Assembly: GCF_012999535.1 (NCBI RefSeq)
Contig: NZ_JABBWV010000001.1
Location: 62,001-126,000 of the forward strand
Length of the DNA: 64,000 bases
Reading direction: 5' to 3'
From: Microbispora sp. H11081
GTDB taxonomy: Bacteria; Actinomycetota; Actinomycetes; Streptosporangiales; Streptosporangiaceae
A program made the position numbers and the translations under genes. The notes beneath the pieces are model-generated. The model made no database searches. It saw only the letters and a program-made list of their open reading frames with translations, and had not been told where the DNA came from. Below, one piece after another: positions 6,483 to 50,412 of the stretch (within the stretch, counting starts at the first letter, position 1; every line of letters starts with the position of its first letter).

Positions 6483-8234
6483 GTGCTGCTGCGTATGTCG
6501 ACCCTGTTCCTGCGCACCCTGCGTGAGGATCCGGCGGACGCGGAAGTGCCGAGCCACAAGCTGCTCGTCCGCGCCGGCTACGTCCGCCGGGTCGCGCCCG
6601 GCATCTACTCCTGGCTGCCGCTCGGCAAGATCGTGCTGGAGAACGTCGCGCGGGTCGTGCGCGAGGAGATGAACCGGATGGGCGCGCAGGAGGTGCTCTT
6701 CCCGGCGCTGCTGCCCAGGGACTACTACGAGGCCACGGGCCGCTGGACCGAGTACGGCGACACGCTGTTCCGGCTGAAGGACCGCAAGGGCGCCGACTAC
6801 CTCCTGGGGCCGACCCACGAGGAGATGTTCACCGACATGGTGAAGGGCGAGTACTCCTCCTACAAGGACTACCCCGTCACCCTGTACCAGATCCAGACGA
6901 AGTACCGCGACGAGGCCCGGCCCCGGGCAGGCATCCTGCGGGGCCGCGAGTTCGTCATGAAGGACTCCTACTCCTTCGACCTCGACGACGACGGTCTCAA
7001 GCGCTCCTACGAGATGCACCGCGAGGCGTACATCCGCCTCTTCGACCGCCTCGGCATCGACTACAAGATCTGCTTCGCCATGTCGGGCGCGATGGGCGGG
7101 TCGGCCTCCGAGGAGTTCCTCGCGCCCTGCGCGACCGGTGAGGACACGTTCGTGGCCTGCCACAACTGCGGTTACGCGGCGAACGCCGAGGCCGTCGTCA
7201 CGCCCGCGCCGCCCGTCGTCACCGCCGCGCAGCCGCCCATGGAGGTGCTCGACACCCCCGACACCCCGACCATCGAGTCGCTGGTCTCGTACGTCAACGA
7301 GCACCACGGCCTCGGCATCACCGCCGCCGACACGCTGAAGAACCTCGTCGTCAAGGTCCGCACACCGGGCTCCGACGAGGTCGAGACGGTCGTCATCGGG
7401 GTGCCCGGCGACCGCGAGGTCGACTTCAAGCGGCTGGAGGCGGCGCTCTCGCCCGGCGTGCCGGAGATCTTCGAGGCCGAGGACTTCGCCCGCCACCCCG
7501 GCCTGGTGCGCGGCTACATCGGCCCGCAGGTGCTCAGGGAGCTGGGGATCACCTACCTGGTCGACCCCCGCGTGGTCGAGGGCTCCGCCTGGGTGACGGG
7601 CGCCAACGAGCCGGGCAAGCACGCCGCGCACGTGGTCGCGGGCCGCGACTTCCAGCCCGACGGCACGATCGAGGCCGCCGAGGTGCGGGCGGGCGACGCC
7701 TGCCCCCGCTGCGCGCAGCCGCTGTCGATCGACCGCGGGATCGAGATCGGCCACATCTTCCAGCTCGGCCGCAAGTACGCCGACGCCGCCCAGCTCGACG
7801 CGCTCGGGCCCGACGGCAAGCCGATCCGCATCACCATGGGCTCGTACGGCGTCGGCGTCTCCCGGGCGGTGGCCGTGCTAGCCGAGCAGCGCCACGACGC
7901 GCTGGGCCTGGTGTGGCCCAGGGAGGTGGCGCCCGCCGACGTGCACATCGTCGGCACCGGCAAGGAGAACCAGATCGAGGTCGCCAACACGCTCGCCGAG
8001 ACGCTGGAGGCGCGCGGGCTGCGGGTGCTCGTGGACGACCGTCCGGGGGTGTCGCCCGGCGTCAAGTTCAAGGACTCCGAGCTGCTCGGCCTGCCCACCG
8101 TCCTGATCGTCGGCCGGGGGCTGGCCAACGGCGTCGTGGAGCTGCGCGACCGGGCGACCGGGACCAAGGAGGAGATCCCCCTGGACGAGGCCGTCGACCG
8201 CGTCCTCACCGCCTGCCACCCCCACCCCGCGTGA
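6483..8234 (+). CDS. proS: Prolyl-tRNA synthetase (bacterial type with editing insertion)
   Basis: The 583-residue class II aminoacyl-tRNA synthetase charges tRNA-Pro. Motif 2/3 regions are recognisable ([28 protein letters not shown], the serine-rich FAMSGAMGG and the late [14 protein letters not shown]). Residues about 225-390 form the YbaK-like editing insertion that clears Ala-tRNA-Pro in bacterial enzymes. The C-terminal 120 residues are the anticodon-binding domain. The GTG at 6483 has an AAGGAG six bases upstream. The stop codon TGA (8232-8234) lies inside the first unit of the palindromic repeat element that follows. Confidence 0.97.
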
Positions 8235-8467
8235 TCTTGTAGTTTGTCGCAGAGAGCCCGCCTGAGCTGCCCTTGTGGCTCCCGTGATCTTGCAGAAGGT
8301 CGCCATGCTTGGGGGTCTGCCTGCGACTTCTCCTTCCGTGATCATGCAATTGCAAGATCACGGAAGGGAAAGTCGCAGGTCAGGTGGCTCGGGCGCGAAT
8401 TTCTGCATGATCACAAACCCTGGACGCCCAGGTCAACGGCCCGCGTGCGACAAACTACAAGATCACG
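8230..8467. repeat. Palindromic phased-repeat element, complete copy A
   Basis: A 238-bp dyad element fills the space between convergent proS and the DUF4439 gene. Its ends are perfect 22-bp inverted repeats (core GTGATCTTGTAGTTTGTCGC). Forward GTGATC units begin at 8231, 8284 and 8338; mirror units end at 8361, 8414 and 8466. The centre is TGCAATTGCA (8345-8354), inside a 58-bp palindrome (8321-8378) whose arms match at 26 of 29 positions. Unit spacing is 52-54 bp. Both flanking genes end in TGA codons belonging to the terminal GTGATC. No open reading frame lies inside. Function unknown; similar copies lie at 44020 and 48988. Confidence 0.9.
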
Positions 8468-9017
8468 GGCCGGAGGGGGTGGGGGGTGGGGGGTCGGATT
8501 CCGCGGGGTCCGGTGCGGGGGAGCCGGCCTCCTGAGTGGGCGTGGCGGAGTCTCCGCCTCGGTTCATGCCGGGGAACGCGTCTATCCGCGGCTGCCAGCC
8601 GTACGCCCGCGTCGCGCACTCCTGCGCGGTCAGCGCGGCGAGCCGCCGCAGGCCGGGGTCGGGATCGGCGGCCATCTCCAGGTACGCGGTGATCACCCGT
8701 TGCTCCACGAGCACGGCCAGGCGCACCGCGTCGGCCTGGCCGCGCACCTCGAACGGCAGATGGTAGGCGGGGCCCGGCTCCGCGGGCGTGCCGCCCCGCT
8801 GGGTGATGAGCGTGCGGAGCTGGTCGCGCCGCGCCCGGTGGGCGTCGAACCCCGCCGTGGCGCGCCTGAGCAGCGCGCCGCTCGTCTTCCCGCCGATCAC
8901 CCCGTACGCGAAGACGGCGGCGTGCTCGGCGGACAGGACACGGTCGAGCACGCCGGCGGGAGGCGACCCGGCAGGCGAGCCGGTGGGCCCGGTCGGTCCG
9001 GTGGGGCTCTCAGTCAC
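8463..9017 (-). CDS. DUF4439 ferritin-like domain protein
   Basis: The 184-residue protein starts with a Pro/Gly/Thr-rich stretch and continues with a four-helix ferritin-like domain of the DUF4439 type: LSAEHAAVFAYGVIGG, AHRARRDQLRTLI, LPFEVRGQADAVRLAVLVEQ and LRRLAALTAQECATRAYGWQ. A Glu/His pair of the sort used for metal binding (SAEHAAVFAYG) is visible, but a full di-iron site is not obvious. The GTG start overlaps the stop of the upstream lipoprotein gene by 8 bp (GTGACTGA), so the two are translationally coupled. The TGA stop lies in the terminal inverted repeat of element A. Confidence 0.8.
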   Translation of the reverse strand: MTESPTGPTGPTGSPAGSPPAGVLDRVLSAEHAAVFAYGVIGGKTSGALLRRATAGFDAHRARRDQLRTLITQRGGTPAEPGPAYHLPFEVRGQADAVRLAVLVEQRVITAYLEMAADPDPGLRRLAALTAQECATRAYGWQPRIDAFPGMNRGGDSATPTQEAGSPAPDPAESDPPPPTPSGP

Positions 9018-43533: not shown

Positions 43534-44031
43534 GTGTCCGAGGTGAAGGTCATCTACCGCAAGTACGGCGGTTCGCTGCACTGGAATCACCCCGCGCGGG
43601 TGCTCGGCGAGGACGAACACGGGGTGTGGGCCGGCTGTCCCGCGGGCACCGTGGGACAGCGGGGGAGCGAGCCGCCGGTCGTCTGGGGGAACGCCTTCGT
43701 GATGCTGTTCCCCCGCCACGCGTGGTGGACGGCCACGTTCAACGACGGGTCGAACCGATGCGCGATCTACTGCGACGTCACCACTGTGCCCGTCCGCGGC
43801 GACGGCCGGATCACCATGGCCGATCTCGACCTCGACGTGCTCCGGATGCGGGACGGCCGGCTGATCCTCGATGACGAGGACGAGTTCGCCGAGCACCAGG
43901 TGCGCTACGCGTACCCGGAGGAGATCATCCGCCAGGCGGAGCGGTCGGCCGCCTGGCTGATGGAGGCCGTGGGCGCGCGTACCGGCCCCTTCAACGGCGC
44001 CCACCACCCCTGGCTCTCCGTGATCTTGTAG
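43534..44031 (+). CDS. DUF402 domain protein
   Basis: A 165-residue protein of the DUF402 family, recognised by RCAIYCDVTTVPV, DLDLDVLRMRDGRLILDDEDEF and HQVRYAYPEEII. Relatives include RNA-linked and nucleoside-phosphate-phosphatase proteins (Ntdp type), where conserved Asp/Glu bind a metal. The function here is unknown. The last four codons and the TAG stop (44029-44031) come from the first unit of repeat element B: Val-Ile-Leu-stop is encoded by GTGATCTTGTAG. Confidence 0.85.
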   Translation: MSEVKVIYRKYGGSLHWNHPARVLGEDEHGVWAGCPAGTVGQRGSEPPVVWGNAFVMLFPRHAWWTATFNDGSNRCAIYCDVTTVPVRGDGRITMADLDLDVLRMRDGRLILDDEDEFAEHQVRYAYPEEIIRQAERSAAWLMEAVGARTGPFNGAHHPWLSVIL

Positions 44032-44153
44032 TTTGTCGCATCGATGCCCCGTGAGCTGCGCGGACACCCTTGGTGATCTTGCACTGGCCGGCTGCTTTCC
44101 GCCCTGACCCGCGCATTCCCGGTCCGTGATCATGCACTGGAGAGCCGGTGATC
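44020..44153 (+). repeat. Palindromic phased-repeat element, half copy B
   Basis: Forward GTGATC units begin at 44020, 44073 and 44126, exactly 53 bp apart. The first matches the outer unit of copy A (GTGATCTTGTAGTTTGTCGC), the others have GTGATCTTGCACTGG and GTGATCATGCACTGG. The mirror half found in the other copies is missing; another GTGATC at 44148 is out of phase. The element lies between the convergent DUF402 and MFS genes and ends 4 bp before the MFS stop codon. It looks like a truncated or single-arm copy. Confidence 0.8.
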
Positions 44154-44156
44154 GCC

Positions 44157-45689
44157 TCATGGTGCGAGCGCCGGCTCCTCACCTGGCTCGGGGATCACCT
44201 TGGGCACGCCGCGCAGCGCGAACGGGACGGCGACCGCGAGGACGACCAGGATGGCCGCGCCGGTCAGCACGGTGGCGTGGATCCCCCCGACGAACGCCTG
44301 GCGCGCCGCCCCGGCGACGGCCCCCGCGGCGTCGCCAGGCAGCGCGGCGGCGGCCTTAAGCGCCCCCGCCAGCGTGTCGCGGGCCTCGGCCGCCGCGCCG
44401 TCGGGCAGCCCGGGGGGAAGCACCAGGCCGTTCCGGTAGGCACTGGTCAGCACACTGCCGAGCACGGCGATGCCGAGCGCGCCGCCCATCTCGTGGGCGG
44501 TCTCGGAGATCGCGCTCGCCGCGCCGGCCCGCTCCTTGGGCACCGAGGCGAGCAGTGTGTCGCCGGTCACGGCGAAGGAGAGGCCGATCCCCACACCCTG
44601 GACGAGCATGGCGACGAGCATGTAGACGTACGGCGTCTGCGTGCCGATCTGGCTGAACAGGACGAACCCGGTCGCGGTCAGCAGCAGCCCGGCGCACACG
44701 ACCGGCCCGCGCCCGAACCGGTGCACGAGCACCCCCGCCAGGGCGCCGCCGACGCCCCCGGCCAGGCCGCCCGGCAGACCCGCGAGCCCGGCGACCAGCG
44801 GTGACCAACCCAGGACGAGCTGGAAGTACTGCGCGAAGACCACCGACATGGCGAGCATGGCGAAGATCGCGATCAGTTCTGCGCCGACCGAGGCCGCGAA
44901 CGCCCGCCGCCGGAACAGCGCCACGTCGATCAACGGCTCGGCCAGCCGGGTCTGCCGGCGTACGAACACGACCAGGGCGGCGACGCCGGCCGCCGCCGCG
45001 ACGATCACCTGGGCCTGGGCGACCCCACCGGTCGCGGCCTCCTTCAGCGCGTAGATCAGGCCGAGCACGCCCACGGCGGACAGCGGGACGCTGACGAGGT
45101 CGAGGCGTCCGGGGCGGGGGTTGCGCGACTCCGGCAGCACGGCCAGCCCGGCGACCAGGACGACCAGGACGAAGGGCACATTGATCAGAAAGACCGACCC
45201 CCACCAGAAGTGGCCGAGCAGCAGCCCGCCGACGATGGGGCCGAGGGCGAAGCCGACGGCGGAGACACTGCTCCAGATGCCGACGGCCGTGGTCCGCTCC
45301 TTCGGGTCGGTGAACACGTTGCGGATCAGCGACAGGGTCGAGGGCATGATCGTGGCGCCGGCCACGCCGAGCAGCGCGCGGGCGCCGATCAGCAGCGGTG
45401 CGGTCGGCGCGTACGCCGTGAGCACGGAGATCACGCCGAACGCGGCCAGGCCGACGAGCATCACTCGCTTGCGCCCGATCCGGTCGCTGATGTTGCCCAT
45501 CGTGACGAGGAGAGAGGCGAGCGCGAAACCGTAGATGTCGGCGATCCACAGCATCTCCGTGCCCGACGGCGCGAGGTCCTCGCTCAGCTTCGGCAGGGCG
45601 AGGTGGAGCACGGTGAGATCGATGGTCAGGATGAGCATGGCCATGCACGCGATGACCAGCGTGCCCCACTTGCGGTAGGTGTCGTTCAT
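44157..45689 (-). CDS. MFS drug exporter, DHA2/EmrB-QacA family
   Basis: A 510-residue, 14-helix membrane exporter: LTIDLTVLHLALPKLSEDL (DHA2 motif D1), LLVTMGNISDRIGRKRVML (motif A), LGVAGATIMPSTLSLIRNVF, and a helix-rich C-terminal half with a long loop near the end (PDGAAAEARDTLAGALKAAA). The ATG at 45689 is 30 bp downstream of the SARP-type regulator gene, so both are likely cotranscribed and the transporter may export the product or inducer linked to that regulator. Confidence 0.93.
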   Translation of the reverse strand: MNDTYRKWGTLVIACMAMLILTIDLTVLHLALPKLSEDLAPSGTEMLWIADIYGFALASLLVTMGNISDRIGRKRVMLVGLAAFGVISVLTAYAPTAPLLIGARALLGVAGATIMPSTLSLIRNVFTDPKERTTAVGIWSSVSAVGFALGPIVGGLLLGHFWWGSVFLINVPFVLVVLVAGLAVLPESRNPRPGRLDLVSVPLSAVGVLGLIYALKEAATGGVAQAQVIVAAAAGVAALVVFVRRQTRLAEPLIDVALFRRRAFAASVGAELIAIFAMLAMSVVFAQYFQLVLGWSPLVAGLAGLPGGLAGGVGGALAGVLVHRFGRGPVVCAGLLLTATGFVLFSQIGTQTPYVYMLVAMLVQGVGIGLSFAVTGDTLLASVPKERAGAASAISETAHEMGGALGIAVLGSVLTSAYRNGLVLPPGLPDGAAAEARDTLAGALKAAAALPGDAAGAVAGAARQAFVGGIHATVLTGAAILVVLAVAVPFALRGVPKVIPEPGEEPALAP

Positions 45690-45719: not shown

Positions 45720-48700
45720 TCACCCACCGAGCGCTGACAGGTGCCCCTCGATCACGGTCAGCGCGGGCGCGGCGGTGCCGCCGCCGACCGGCATCCGCTC
45801 CTGGACGTACGCCCTGCCCTGGGCGTACGCGCGGTCGAAGGGGTCGCCGCCCAGGGCGGCACGGCAACGGGCGGCGACCCGGGCGACGTCGGGGTCGGCC
45901 ACCGCGGGGGCGCCGCGCAGGGCCGCGCCCACGCCCAGCAGCCAGGCGGCCCGCTCGGCGTTCCCCTCCAGCAGGGAGACTCCGGCGATGCCCTCGGCCA
46001 GGCCGGCGGCCATGGCGGGGCTCCGGTCGCCGAGGCCGGTCATCAGTGCGCGGCGGTGCCAGGCCAGCGCCTCGGCCGCCGCACCCGACATCTCGGCGGC
46101 CCAGCCGAGCGCGACGTAGATGCGCGACCGGGTCTCCTCGGCCGTGAACCAGTCGGCCGTGCACTCGGCCAGGGCCGTCTCGTACAGCCGCCGGGCCCCG
46201 GCCACGTCTCCGCCCCTCCTGGCCAGGTCGCCGAGCCCGAGGTGCGCCAGGGCGAGCATCTCGGGGGCGCCCATCCGCCGGGCGAGGTCGGCCGCGTGCT
46301 CGTAGTCGGCCCTCGCGGCCGCCGGGTCTCCCGCGCGCATGCGCGCCCCGGCGCGGCGGCACAGCGCCTCCGCCATGTCGGTCGTGGCACCCAGCCGTTC
46401 GGCCAGGCCGAGCGCCTCGTTGACGAGCGTCTCGACCCTTCCGTGGTCGCCCCGATAGTCGGCGATGTCGGCCAGCGAGGACAGGAACATGATCCTGGTC
46501 CAGATGTCCCCGGTCTCGCGGGACTCGGCGAGCGCCTCGGAGATCTGCGACTCGGCCTCGTCGAGGCGGCCGTCGAACAGCGTCAGGCAGGCCACGCCGT
46601 AGCGGCTCAGCGTCCGCGTCCAGGGGTCGTTCGCCAGCAGGCCGACCTGGTCTGTCAGCGTGCTTCGCGCCTGCCGTTCCGGCGGCCCGGTGATCATCGC
46701 CCAGAGGATCAGCAGGAACGGCTGCCTGGGCGGCAGCGGCAGGGCGTGCCCCAGCCGTACGGCCTCGGCGAGATGGCCGTCAAGACCGCCCGCCCGCGCG
46801 CTGGCGCCGTTCCAGATGGCGAGGCAGGCGCACAGCACGTACTCCTCCTCAAGCCCGTCGGGCGGGGTGGCGCCGATCCGGCCCAGCAGTTCCGCCGCCG
46901 GCCCCGCCGCCTCACCCCGCAGCCCGCGCAGCAGCCAGTAGCCGGTCGCGGCCGACACCAGGCGCAGCGCGGGCACCACGTCCCCGGCGCGTACGGCGCG
47001 GCGCAGCGCGGCGTGCAGGTTGTCGCGCTCGCCGTCCAGCCTGCGCAGCCACGCGACCTGGTCCGGCCCGCGCAGGTGCGGGTCGGCCGTGGCCGCCAGA
47101 TCCAGGACGTACGCGAAGTGGGCCTTGCGTGTGGCCTCGCTCTCGCCGGACTCGGCCAGCCGTTCCGCGCAGAACGCCCGGATCGTCTCCAGCATCCGGT
47201 AGCGGTCGTCCACCACCTCCACGAGGGACTTGTCCACCAGGGAGGCGAGCACGCCGTCCGTGTCGGGCAGGCCGCACACGCGTTCGGCCGCCTCCAGCGT
47301 CGCGCCGCCGGCGAAGACCGTCAGGCGCCGCGCGAGCGCGCGCTCGGGCTCGTCGAGCAGGTCCCAGCTCCACTCGACGACCGCGCGCAGCGTACGGTGG
47401 CGCGGCTGCGCCGTACGGCTGCCGCGCGACAGCAGCGCGAAACGGGGGGCGTCACCCTCCGGCTCCGGATCGTCGGCTCCTAGTCGGGCGGCGATCCGCG
47501 CCAGGGGCAGCGAACGCAGCCGGGCGGCGGCCAGTTCGAGCGCCAGCGGCAGCCCGTCCAGCGCCCGGCAGATCCGCAGCACGTGCCCGACGTCGCCGGG
47601 CCCGAAGACGATGCCGGGCCGTACGGCGGCCGCCCGCTCGGCGAACAGCCGTACGGCCGGATAGGCGAGCGCGTCCTCGACGGCCGGTTCGCTGCCGGGC
47701 GGCGGGACGCGCAGCGGGGGGACGGGACACAGGCGCTCGCCGGTGATGCCGAGCGCCTCACGGCCGGTGGCCAGGACGCGCAGGGCCGGGCAGGCCGCGA
47801 GCAGCCGGTCGGCGAGCCGGGCCGCGTCCTCCACGACGTGCTCGCAGTTGTCGAGCACGAGCAGCACCGGCCGCAGGGTCAGGGCCGTCACCAGGCGGGC
47901 GACGGGATCTGCAGGGCTCGGCCGCGCCCCGGGGCCGGGGGCGGGCACGGAGCTCTCCCGCAGCCCGAGCGCGCCGAGCACGGCCTGCGGCACGTCGGCT
48001 CCGTCGGTGAGCGGGGCCAGTTCCACGAGGCACACCTCGCCAGGCCAGCGACCGGCCGCCTCGACCGCCAGCCGCGTCTTCCCTGTGCCGCCAGGGCCGG
48101 TCAGCGTCACGAGCCGTGCGTCGGCCAGCAGCGCGCCGACGCGTTCGAGCTCCGCCTCGCGGCCGACGAGAGACGTGAGCGGCACCGGCCGCACGGCCGG
48201 CGCGGCGGGGGCGAGCGCCGGGTCGGCGCGCAGCACCGCGAGGTGGATGGCCGACAACTCGGCCGACGGATCGGCGCCCAACTCGCCCGCGAGGACCCGC
48301 CGGGCGTCCTCGAAGACCGTCAGCGCCTCCGCCGGGCGGCCCACGGCGTACAACGCGCGCATGAGCTGCCCGCGCGAGCGCTCCCGCAGCGGATGCGCGG
48401 CGACCCGTTCCTGCAGCTCGGGCAGCAGGTCGCGGTGCCGCCCCAGGGCGAGGCCCGCCTCGGCGAGGTCCTCGGCCGCCGACAGGCGCAGTTCCTCAAG
48501 CCGGGCCGCCTGGACGGGCGCGAACGGCGCGTCGGGCACGTCCGCCAGCGCCGGCCCGCGCCAGAGGGCGAGCGCCGTGCCGAGAAGGCCCGCAGCCCGG
48601 GCCGGGTCGCCCGCGTCGAGCGCCCGCCGCCCCTCGGCGGCCAGCCGTTCGAAACGACACGCGTCCACGTCGTCCGGGTCCACCGCCAGCCGGTAGCCCG

Positions 48701-48953
48701 CCGGTTCCCGTACGACCAGGTCGCCGAGGTGCTGGCGCAGTCGGGACACCTGGGCCTGCAGCGCGTTCGTCGCCCCGGAGGGGGGCTCGGCGCCGTAGAG
48801 GCCGTCGATCAGGCGGTCGGTGGTGACGACCTTGCCCGCGTTGAGGAGCAGCAGGCCGAGCAGCGCCCGCAGCCCGGGGCCGCCGACCGGTACGAGGCGG
48901 TCGCCGTCGGGCCGCGCCTCAATAGGGCCGAGGATGCCGAACCGCATGCCCAT
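45720..48953 (-). CDS. AfsR/SARP-type regulator (BTAD, NB-ARC ATPase, TPR)
   Basis: A 1077-residue regulator. Residues 3-95 form an OmpR-type winged helix (FGILGPIEARPDGDRLVPV), about 97-245 the BTAD bacterial activation domain, about 260-560 an NB-ARC/STAND ATPase with Walker A LTGPGGTGKTR (near 284-294) and LLVLDNCEHV as Walker B, then a winged-helix/TPR C-terminal half. Such proteins switch on secondary-metabolism or antibiotic-response genes in actinomycetes. The ATG at 48953 (GGGAG four bases upstream) and the ATG at 48947 are both possible; the frame continues upstream only through repeat element C. The exporter follows 30 bp downstream. Confidence 0.93.
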   Translation of the reverse strand: MGMRFGILGPIEARPDGDRLVPVGGPGLRALLGLLLLNAGKVVTTDRLIDGLYGAEPPSGATNALQAQVSRLRQHLGDLVVREPAGYRLAVDPDDVDACRFERLAAEGRRALDAGDPARAAGLLGTALALWRGPALADVPDAPFAPVQAARLEELRLSAAEDLAEAGLALGRHRDLLPELQERVAAHPLRERSRGQLMRALYAVGRPAEALTVFEDARRVLAGELGADPSAELSAIHLAVLRADPALAPAAPAVRPVPLTSLVGREAELERVGALLADARLVTLTGPGGTGKTRLAVEAAGRWPGEVCLVELAPLTDGADVPQAVLGALGLRESSVPAPGPGARPSPADPVARLVTALTLRPVLLVLDNCEHVVEDAARLADRLLAACPALRVLATGREALGITGERLCPVPPLRVPPPGSEPAVEDALAYPAVRLFAERAAAVRPGIVFGPGDVGHVLRICRALDGLPLALELAAARLRSLPLARIAARLGADDPEPEGDAPRFALLSRGSRTAQPRHRTLRAVVEWSWDLLDEPERALARRLTVFAGGATLEAAERVCGLPDTDGVLASLVDKSLVEVVDDRYRMLETIRAFCAERLAESGESEATRKAHFAYVLDLAATADPHLRGPDQVAWLRRLDGERDNLHAALRRAVRAGDVVPALRLVSAATGYWLLRGLRGEAAGPAAELLGRIGATPPDGLEEEYVLCACLAIWNGASARAGGLDGHLAEAVRLGHALPLPPRQPFLLILWAMITGPPERQARSTLTDQVGLLANDPWTRTLSRYGVACLTLFDGRLDEAESQISEALAESRETGDIWTRIMFLSSLADIADYRGDHGRVETLVNEALGLAERLGATTDMAEALCRRAGARMRAGDPAAARADYEHAADLARRMGAPEMLALAHLGLGDLARRGGDVAGARRLYETALAECTADWFTAEETRSRIYVALGWAAEMSGAAAEALAWHRRALMTGLGDRSPAMAAGLAEGIAGVSLLEGNAERAAWLLGVGAALRGAPAVADPDVARVAARCRAALGGDPFDRAYAQGRAYVQERMPVGGGTAAPALTVIEGHLSALGG

Positions 48954-48987: not shown

Positions 48988-49276
48988 GTGATCTTGCAGT
49001 TTGTCGCGGAGTGCGGCCCAGCCTGGCCCGATCCACCTCGTGATCTTGCAGTTTGTCGCAGGCGTGTACGACGACCAGGGAATACCCTCTTTGTGATCTT
49101 GCAGTTGTCAAGGTCGCGGACGGCGTGACCTGGGCGAACAGACTCGCTGATCATGCAATTGCATGATCACGGGTGGCGTTTTCCCTGGTCGGTACGCGTG
49201 TACGCCGTTCATCTGCAAGATCACCAAAGGAATCGCCGCAGGTCGGTGCCATCTGTGCGACAAACTACAAGATCAC
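48988..49276. repeat. Palindromic phased-repeat element, complete copy C
   Basis: Forward units begin at 48988, 49040, 49093 and 49147; mirror units end at 49170, 49224 and 49276. All spacings are 52-54 bp. The centre is a perfect 22-bp palindrome (49148-49169) containing TGCAATTGCA. Distances of units from the centre (11.5, 65.5, 118.5 on the left; 11.5, 65.5, 117.5 on the right) match copy A almost exactly, and the left arm has one extra unit at 170.5. The element fills the gap between the SARP gene's start and the stop of the gene at 49285. No gene is seen within it. Confidence 0.9.
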
Positions 49277-49284
49277 GGCGGGGT

Positions 49285-50412
49285 TTAGGGGGTGGGGGTG
49301 ATGGCTTGGGTGAGGGCTTTGAGGCGGGGGGTGGAGGCCAGGCCGCCGTGGTACCAGTGGATCTCGGTGGCGCCGGCCGCCGTGTAGGCCTCGGCCAGGA
49401 ACGACAGGGCCGCGCCGTCCGCCGGACGCGGCGGAAGGGCCAGCACGTAGGCGCCCACGGAAGGGCCGAGCTCGCCCAGGGCGCGCAGCCCGGCCTCGTC
49501 CACCTCGGGCGCGTTCCAGCAGTTGCCGACGAGCAGGTCGGCGTCCACCCCCTCGGGCACGGTCGCGAACGGGCCGGTCGCCCACGGGTCGGCGCTGGCG
49601 TGCAGGGCGATCCTCAGCCCCGGCCGGGCCGATCTGGCCTCCGCCAGCAGCAGGCCGCGCAGTTCGCCCGCGAGCCCCGTGCGCAGGTCGCGCATCGGGC
49701 CCGCGAGGTCGCCCAGCGCGTCCTCGACCGAGCGTGGCTCGCCGTCGACACCGGCCCGCACCCGCGCGCGGACCTCGGCGACGTCCAGCCCGGCCGTCTC
49801 ATAGCGGCGTACGCAGGCCGCGCAGAAGCACAGCGACAGCAGCGCGACCTGCGCGGGCGACCAGTCGGCGCCGTCGGTCTTCTCGTGGTGGCCGCCGTGG
49901 GCGAAGCCGAGGGCCCCGCACGCTTCCAGGATCAAAGCGTCCGGGTCGCCGAGCTCCACGATCTCGCGGACCAGCGTGCGGCAGTAGTCGCGCACGTCGG
50001 CCGCCGCCGGGCACAGCGCGTACGGGTAGGTCTCGCCGAAGGCGTTGGTGACCACCAGGTCGGGGTTGGCCGAGCCGAGCAGCGTGTTGTGGGTCAGCAC
50101 GGTCCACGCCTGGACCGGCAGGCCGGCGGCGCGCAGGGCGTCCCTGGCCTCCCCGAACGGGTCGTCCGAGTCCATCCACGACGGCGTGGCGGGCACGAGC
50201 CGGTTGCCCTTCCACGCCTCCTCCCGTACGGGCACATAGCAGGCGGAGTGCCGGGCGTCGACCAGCCGGTGGGCGGGGTGACGGGGGGTGGCGGCGCGGG
50301 TGGTGTGGTAGGACGCGGCGAGCGCGACGGCGTCCACGCCGAGAGCCGCCAGGCGGGCGGCGGCGCCGGGGTCGCCGACGATGTCCCAGGGGTAGGCGTA
50401 GATGACGTTCAA
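49285..50412 (-). CDS. Uncharacterised TIM-barrel-like protein in the uronate operon
   Basis: A 375-residue cytoplasmic protein of unknown function. Alternating strand/helix segments (VIYAYPWDIVG, GLPVQAWTVLTHN, DALILEACGALGF, LRIALHASADPWATG, ATEIHWYHGG) look like a TIM barrel of the glycoside-hydrolase type. A CxCxxC cluster (Cys195, 197, 200) and AHGGHHEK (171-178) could bind metal. The start is a TTG at 50412 overlapping the TGA of glucD (TTGA), a coupling that supports this start. Position as last gene of the glucarate operon suggests a glucuronide-related hydrolase or accessory enzyme, which is inference only. Confidence 0.65.
   Translation of the reverse strand: MNVIYAYPWDIVGDPGAAARLAALGVDAVALAASYHTTRAATPRHPAHRLVDARHSACYVPVREEAWKGNRLVPATPSWMDSDDPFGEARDALRAAGLPVQAWTVLTHNTLLGSANPDLVVTNAFGETYPYALCPAAADVRDYCRTLVREIVELGDPDALILEACGALGFAHGGHHEKTDGADWSPAQVALLSLCFCAACVRRYETAGLDVAEVRARVRAGVDGEPRSVEDALGDLAGPMRDLRTGLAGELRGLLLAEARSARPGLRIALHASADPWATGPFATVPEGVDADLLVGNCWNAPEVDEAGLRALGELGPSVGAYVLALPPRPADGAALSFLAEAYTAAGATEIHWYHGGLASTPRLKALTQAITPTP

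Follow-up and report, generated by a model that had tools for sequence, protein, structure and literature searches.

Repetitive extragenic palindromes (REP) and bacterial interspersed mosaic elements (BIME) are described, in the available parts of PMC3733652 and PMC1525189, as dispersed, extragenic, genome-specific sequences that lie mostly between convergent genes or genes of the same direction, and for which functions in supercoiling, in termination and in the stability of mRNA have been proposed. The unit of the REP associated with tyrosine transposases (REP/RAYT) is given in the accessible part of PMC3733652 as a palindrome of 20–40 bp. These elements are the nearest known kind to the subject of this study, the mirrored arrays of short DNA units present in a 64,000-nt stretch of the genome of Microbispora sp. 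H11081 (the window) and elsewhere in that genome (G000). The arrays are likewise dispersed, extragenic, placed mostly at convergent or same-direction genes in G000, and genome-specific. They differ from REP/RAYT in that the units of an arm are direct repeats without a 20–40 bp internal palindrome, set at a fixed 53 bp, and from REP/BIME in having unlike spacers, a second box and no constant GTAG/CGTC tag.

Two kinds of transcription terminator offer further comparisons. Two-way intrinsic terminators without a U-tract (I-shaped) occur in actinobacteria, whereas TTF-I at the Sal box and Reb1 provide eukaryotes with downstream protein sites that halt the polymerase and are not known to be mirrored or to have five-turn phasing. 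The arrays share the convergent position of the I-shaped terminators, alternate with them at the loci compared, and have a stem-loop as their centre; unlike them, the two-sided arrays are about 240–390 bp long, multi-site and furnished with conserved boxes, and the one-sided arrays mostly have no long stem. With the TTF-I and Reb1 roadblocks they share a place downstream of genes, the protein being in their case only a predicted one. A literature search, with most subscription papers outside its reach, returned no description of such mirrored, length-locked arrays, and no named family with this five-turn design is known to us. Were every dispersed extragenic repeat assigned to a single kind, the arrays would be a new variety of it. 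We tentatively propose, at somewhat under an even chance, that they are protein-bound two-way boundaries or terminators of transcription at the ends of transcription units.

Architecture of the arrays

The initial annotation, made from the window alone, described two arrays (A and C) in which units point from both sides towards a TGCAATTGCA centre. Both lie exactly where it placed them and have the unit geometry that it gave, a sample that is small next to the 209 tandem unit pairs of the whole genome. With at most one mismatch, the window contains 21 units, 16 of them in arrays A, B and C; the other five, outside the three arrays, carry one mismatch each. Chance would give a mean of 1.16, and 21 was reached in 0 of 100 shuffles. 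TGCAATTGCA occurs twice against 0.01 expected.

The search of the genome and its relatives for unit pairs, a check that the initial annotation had proposed, gave a non-random spacing. G000 (7.38 Mb, 50 contigs) holds 209 tandem pairs, 105 on the + strand and 104 on the − strand, as against 0 for a reversed control pattern, together with 149 occurrences (at most one mismatch) of the long outer unit GTGATCTTGYARTTNGTNGC. The usual array comprises three right-pointing units, a 24-bp centre and three left-pointing units. Its anatomy was read in 40 regions of G000 (the first places listed) holding 46 clusters, which are a part of the arrays of the genome; 44 of these clusters had sufficient flank and neighbours for context counts, and 29 of the 44 are two-sided, the remainder being one-armed.

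The claimed spacing of 52–54 bp extends well beyond the window. Of the steps within arms in three Microbispora genomes, 305/313 measure 52, 53 or 54 bp. Some of the 20 loci taken from each of G003 and G008 are orthologues of G000 loci, which makes the pooled counts of steps, complementarity and centres non-independent. Steps off the rule measure 63–64 bp, about one extra turn, or 104–107 bp, with a unit absent. The sharp step in G000 is not built in, because the search accepted 36–66 bp. In Planotetraspora and Sphaerimonospora, 198/209 and 31/32 steps follow the rule, in loci fetched with a pattern that requires one step of 51–55 bp and hence in a set that leans towards it.

Each 53-bp repeat consists of an A box, GTGATCWTGCA, at positions 0–10, TCG at 16–18, a B box, GACCTGc, at 33–39, and a C preceding the next unit. 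The GACCTG of the B box stands at +33 in all three genera; by arithmetic, its centre is 32 bp (about three turns) past that of one A box and 21 bp (about two turns) ahead of that of the following one. Planotetraspora and Sphaerimonospora share the plan with a lineage-specific extension of the A box; where the outer unit of Microbispora has GTAG, their consensus has GCAC and GCAG.

Outside the outer units, on both sides, lies a C-rich, G-poor tract (C 0.57, G 0.14 in the 25-nt flank, G000), as compared with C 0.36 and G 0.36 in the 30 nt past array-less stops of the same genome. The tract is weaker in Planotetraspora (C 0.45–0.47). The array spacers are also C-rich on the inward strand. Such a composition would suit rut-like RNA made of flank and arms, with Rho as the effector; we regard this as the least probable of the explanations weighed here, since the tract is equally strong on the promoter sides of arrays and since Rho loading leaves the sequence boxes and the 53-bp lock unexplained.

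Some half-arrays face each other across 1–2.6 kb of genes (L035 4001-6762, L059 4001-5459, L193 3035-4372, L137 3279-5889), as though genes had been inserted into the centre or the two halves enclosed an operon. The intervening genes are an amidohydrolase and a glycerate kinase in L035 and an MTES_1575-type nuclease gene in L059.

Conservation of boxes and lengths

In 21 pairs of orthologous arrays, mismatches number 48/1229 in the A boxes (3.9%) and 86/665 in the B boxes (12.9%), as opposed to 453/1960 in the spacers (23.1%) and 14.3% in the A-box extension; the homologous DNA flanking the pairs differs by 8.9%. Arm segments are identical in length in 55/67 cases, 1 bp off in 11 and 2 bp off in 1, in a comparison that took array pairs with equal unit strings, counted L049/L114 twice and, in one row for the L035/L086 locus, paired half-arrays that do not correspond. 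Centre lengths are equal in 13/13 orthologous comparisons (from 12 array pairs), and some one-sided arrays are conserved between species as well. Purifying selection thus keeps the boxes and their distance while the intervening letters drift, which fits the prediction of phased DNA contacts. The proposal that helical phasing would let a protein meet every unit on the same face agrees with this length lock and box conservation.

Among 317 alignments of G000 with itself, the best one of at least 200 bp that is not a self-match is 74% identical, so the arrays read include no near-identical copies of full length, though shorter stretches of 60–119 bp reach 84–88% and partial copying is possible. 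The inward-facing arms of two-sided arrays, the half-arrays across 1–2.6 kb of genes (L035, L059, L137, L193), the patchy distribution and the lineage-specific consensus could nevertheless be those of a domesticated or dying mobile element, its arms multi-site terminal inverted repeats (TIR) once bound by a transposase and most copies like miniature inverted-repeat transposable elements (MITE). We consider this origin very unlikely in view of the low identity between full-length copies, the boxes and lengths that are under present selection, the absence of any transposase from three cargo genes between half-arrays and of a Y1 transposase from G000, and the array-less sites at the three loci compared, which are not clean empty sites. 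The suggestion of a currently mobile palindrome is not supported, given the identity values, the lack of a Y1 transposase in G000 and the three loci compared. Nor do the arrays match a MITE or TIR transposon: the 40 regions (46 clusters) read showed no near-identical copies, and the three loci compared showed no empty sites with target duplication. Recent whole-array transposition is likewise unsupported in the arrays read. A phage origin was also rejected: 57 viral stretches each contain one match and none contains an array.

The Y1 transposase (PF01797), which applies to the GTAG class of REP, is absent from G000, G008, G036, G230, G110, G432, G491, G579 and G373, that is, from nine of thirteen unit-bearing genomes tested, which further separates the arrays from REP/RAYT. 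It is present in 8/20 genomes, four of them array-bearing (G003, G006, G233, G237) and four array-less (G001, G007, G009, G010). Identity with REP/RAYT is not supported, since tests for a palindromic unit, for a constant tag and for a Y1 transposase each went against it.

Position at gene ends

The bias in position for which the initial annotation had proposed a test is present in G000. Among the 44 arrays of G000, 19 lie between convergent genes, 24 between genes of the same direction and none between divergent genes, and 1 lies within a called frame that, by Pfam, divides into AftD and PorA; 50/244 gene pairs in the same loci are divergent. In G003 and G008 together, 0/42 arrays stand between divergent genes. 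The median distance in G000 is 15 bp to gene 3′ ends and 107 bp to 5′ ends, and in 18 contacts among those listed the gap is −4, the GTGA of the unit providing the stop codon. Convergent two-sided arrays fill 0.82–1.0 of the gap (n = 11) and one-sided arrays 0.29–0.75 (n = 8). These placements fit the insulating role that had been among the suggested functions.

Complementarity of the centre and the arms

The alternative of a long cruciform, or an RNA of both arms, did not hold. Mirror spacers are no more complementary within arrays than between them (0.535 vs 0.539; 0.436 vs 0.424; 56 arrays), whereas the 14 nt outside the innermost unit are (0.526 vs 0.450, above all 2000 permutations; 61 arrays); complementarity is thus confined to the palindrome at the centre plus about 14 nt to either side. 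Because the arms are not complementary past their boxes, phased sites for a DNA-binding protein would be a better fit than a long cruciform. The C-rich left and G-rich right flanks were also tested for pairing with each other; this was rejected, 267 and 306 of 2000 permutations being as high. The constant centre geometry seen in the window likewise proved not to be general. Arm spacing is strict, whereas centre length is not: over three genera it is 22–23 bp in 39/95, 33–36 bp in 23/95 and otherwise scattered. A helical phase of the centre lengths is significant solely through the 33–36 bp class; the remainder has none (R 0.125, p 0.59).

The folding energy of arrays A and C, the two that were folded, is far below that of shuffles (z about −10), and the longest stem in convergent gaps of G000 has a median of 19 bp with two-sided arrays (n = 11) and 10.5 with one-sided arrays (n = 8), compared with 9.5 in array-less gaps (n = 20) and 8 in size-matched coding sequence. 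The low folding energy, the stem median of the two-sided arrays, the complementarity around the centre and the GTGATCATGCA hairpins of other actinobacterial families (see below) would be expected if the central stem, perhaps the whole array, were a long two-way hairpin terminator or a protector of mRNA 3′ ends, with the arms as by-products. We judge such an RNA element improbable. Low folding energy is uninformative about the arms, because inverted boxes alone produce it; the mirror spacers are unpaired beyond the control; one-sided convergent arrays have short stems, and some one-sided arrays are conserved between species; and the 53-bp lock has no reason in RNA. In addition, Rfam gave 0 matches above the gathering cut-off in six loci. 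A T-tract such as follows the stem of an intrinsic terminator was sought in array A and not found past its centre; one 5-pair site lies away from the centre.

Alternation with hairpins in relatives

At three loci compared between relatives, array-less alleles often contain a long hairpin at the same spot. Stems of at least 12 bp occur in 11/14 array-less alleles at proS, 8/14 at L063 and 4/12 at L036, in total 23/40, as compared with 13/120 coding windows within the upstream genes; the 40 alleles include three of G036, from another genus, and exclude four array-bearing alleles. Alternation is, on these sequences, clear at two of the three loci. At L063 the array is common to G000 and G003, and G008 has a hairpin, although G008 is closer to G000. 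G004, sister to G008 (bootstrap 98), has 7 unit pairs vs 65 and, at the three loci, no array and stems of 17, 11 and 9. Taken together, hairpin alternation and gap filling are the best, though indirect, evidence for a role at the end of transcription.

Two side observations concern relatives poor in arrays or without one at a given locus. The one array read in G004 (L015) is decayed, which would fit loss of a binding factor. At the proS locus of G001, G009 and G011 (L243, L244, L242), a C-rich tract and an outer GTGATC or GTGACC half-unit frame a GC-rich hairpin with no array, perhaps an intermediate or remnant state.

Distribution and the wider family

The 53-bp pattern was matched in 16/341 genomes of the family, of which three have just one or two hits. 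The strong genomes are four Microbispora (198, 57, 55 and 35 pairs; a fifth has 4), all five genomes of genus g23, presumably Planotetraspora (124–751 pairs), two of genus g74, presumably Sphaerimonospora (29 and 142), and G110 (469). Among 296 genomes of the class, besides G000 and G003, more than one hit was found just in G373 (15) and G432 (12). When the step range is widened to 36–66 bp, G373 yields 156 pairs and G432 yields 59, at scattered steps; the commonest in G373, among the matches listed, is 37 bp, and neighbouring spacers there are often near-identical. The five-turn lock and the B box were seen in Streptosporangiaceae only, among the genomes searched.

G432, G491 and G579 bear GTGATCATGCA hairpins with C-rich flanks (L323-L342). 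Divergent contexts make up 1/14, 3/8 and 0/6 of the loci read in other families, each count including one within-gene single match. From the shared core we infer common descent: inward-facing GTGATCATGCA repeats would form a wider actinobacterial family. As a separate observation, GTGATCATGCA or GTGATCTTGCA hairpins in L323-L342, L253 (G373) and L018 and L025 (G037) have genome-specific inner stems and, in many cases, C-rich flanks. G373 C1 (e.g. 150636-150752, 531975-532057, 1379505-1379740) carries a longer unit, GTGATCATGCAATCCCGCCACCC, at scattered steps and often with identical neighbouring spacers; its tandem pairs look like recent tandem duplication, in contrast to the Microbispora arrays.

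The number and symmetry of the arrays allow another function. Phased sites might attract a topoisomerase or an architectural protein, by which the DNA would be wrapped, looped or pinned; BIMEs, which bind gyrase or IHF, are a parallel. The gene-end position would then merely mirror supercoil meeting points or least-harm insertion. Hundreds of unit pairs per genome, mirroring that does not depend on the direction of the genes, C-rich tracts flanking both sides alike and divergent cases in Planotetraspora are in keeping with such a nucleoid or topology element. We consider it on the whole unlikely: terminator-like hairpins alternate at the same spot, 0/44 arrays of G000 are divergent, and the arrays are patchy (16/341), whereas gyrase is, as far as is known, universal.

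Proposed mechanism

Based on the above data, we propose that the arrays are probably docking sites of a predicted protein that marks or blocks gene ends. The sequences themselves establish a two-box repeat of locked length under purifying selection, its gene-end position in Microbispora and, clearly at two of three loci, the hairpin alternation; from these we infer the binding protein, the roadblock and termination. A sequence-specific protein would bind each 53-bp repeat, contacting the A box and the B box on one face of the helix, with the A-box contact covering GTGATCWTGCA plus the lineage-specific extension and with mostly three to five repeats per arm. Two inward-facing arms would build a symmetrical nucleoprotein block around a palindromic, hairpin-capable centre, and this block would halt RNA polymerase from either side, replacing the hairpin terminator of relatives.

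Several observations weigh against a boundary of transcription. Arrays in Planotetraspora are divergent in 7/40 cases (6/34 in another count), with 57/230 divergent gene pairs there, as called by a gene caller trained on Microbispora and also applied to Planotetraspora. In same-direction regions, the polarity of one-sided arrays relative to transcription is not significant (18 with, 9 against, p 0.12). The set from the other genera leans to the spacing rule, as noted above. Because the C-rich flank of G000 is equally strong on promoter and 3′ sides, termination of the upstream gene alone fails to explain it. Because two other actinobacterial families have scattered steps, phasing is not required by the wider family. 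Finally, a long stem is present in just 4/12 array-less alleles at L036, and hairpins and arrays may alternate simply by competing for the room between genes; the control windows are coding and not intergenic.

Comparison with other repeat systems

Three other systems have superficial likenesses. As in clustered regularly interspaced short palindromic repeats (CRISPR), the arrays show a repeat of about 21 nt and unlike spacers of about 32 nt; in contrast, they are mirrored, short and spread over dozens of loci, with a conserved B box in the spacers (cas genes were not searched for). DNA uptake sequences of Neisseria and Pasteurellaceae are short cores with dialects, in inverted pairs at gene ends and paired into terminators. 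The arrays also have a short conserved core with dialects, inverted at gene ends, but those of the window are fixed-spaced, and no exact isolated unit lies outside them there. ArgR boxes were rejected: the GTGATCATGCA string occurs once in the accessible part of PMC5839063, which gives ArgR operators of 18–20 bp, with no fit.

Features in the window

The genes beside the arrays are ordinary: the 15 proteins scanned by Pfam include proS, transporters, regulators, phosphoglucomutase and others. Coordinates for the window are collected in Table 1. In the two genes flanking array A, the C-rich flanks extend into the reading frames, where they encode C-terminal tails rich in proline (HPHPA, PPPPTPSGP); the C-terminus of proS differs in most relatives without the array.

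Table 1 Arrays, their parts and flanking genes in the 64,000-nt window
Feature	Coordinates	Strand	Remarks
Array A, two-sided	8230..8467	.	3 units +, 3 units −; takes up the gap that separates the convergent proS and DUF4439 genes
Unit A1, outer, GTGATCTTGTA	8231..8241	+	start 8231, 118.5 bp from TGCAATTGCA centre; its GTGA is the source of the proS stop codon
Unit A2	8284..8294	+	start 8284, 65.5 bp from centre
Unit A3, inner	8338..8348	+	start 8338, 11.5 bp from centre
Array A central palindrome, GTGATCATGCAATTGCAAGATCAC	8338..8361	.	TGCAATTGCA at 8345-8354; pairing extends outward on both sides
Unit A4, inner	8351..8361	−	start 8361, 11.5 bp from centre
Unit A5	8404..8414	−	start 8414, 64.5 bp from centre
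Unit A6, outer	8456..8466	−	start 8466, 116.5 bp from centre; overlapped by called stop codon of DUF4439 gene
Array A B box, TGACCTGCG	8374..8382	−	inward of unit A5
Array A left outer flank	8210..8229	+	C-rich and G-poor reading inward
Array A right outer flank	8467..8505	−	C-rich (G-rich on +)
Array B, one-sided	44020..44136	+	units 44020, 44073, 44126; between convergent DUF402 and MFS genes
Array C, two-sided	48988..49276	.	same-direction genes; 4 units + (48988, 49040, 49093, 49147, the last with one mismatch), 3 units − (49170, 49224, 49276)
Array C central palindrome	49147..49170	.	TGCAATTGCA at 49154-49163
Array C B box, TGACCTGGG	49126..49134	+
Array A flanking gene, prolyl-tRNA synthetase domains (proS)	6483..8234	+	Pfam
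Array A flanking gene, DUF4439	8463..8951	−	Pfam; Pro-rich C-terminal tail
Array B flanking gene, DUF402	43534..44031	+	Pfam
Array B flanking gene, MFS transporter	44157..45689	−	Pfam
Array C flanking gene, 5′ side, BTAD regulator	45720..48953	−	Pfam
Array C flanking gene, 3′ side	49285..50412	−	no Pfam match at 1e-5

Implications

It is possible, though we think it doubtful, that some Streptosporangiaceae mark many transcription-unit ends with a dedicated chromatin-like protein–DNA block that replaces hairpin terminators and derives from the wider, unlocked GTGATCATGCA family. In it, a predicted protein with several DNA contacts would assemble symmetrically on the five-turn repeats and terminate or insulate transcription on both sides. 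To our knowledge, the ending of genes by protein-bound DNA is known only from the roadblock terminators of eukaryotes. If the proposal is true, some bacteria would end and insulate genes by protein-bound DNA arrays instead of RNA hairpins. Should the mechanism be another one, the presence of hundreds of length-locked sites in a genome would still imply a new DNA-binding protein, and close relatives with and without arrays constitute a natural experiment for its identification.
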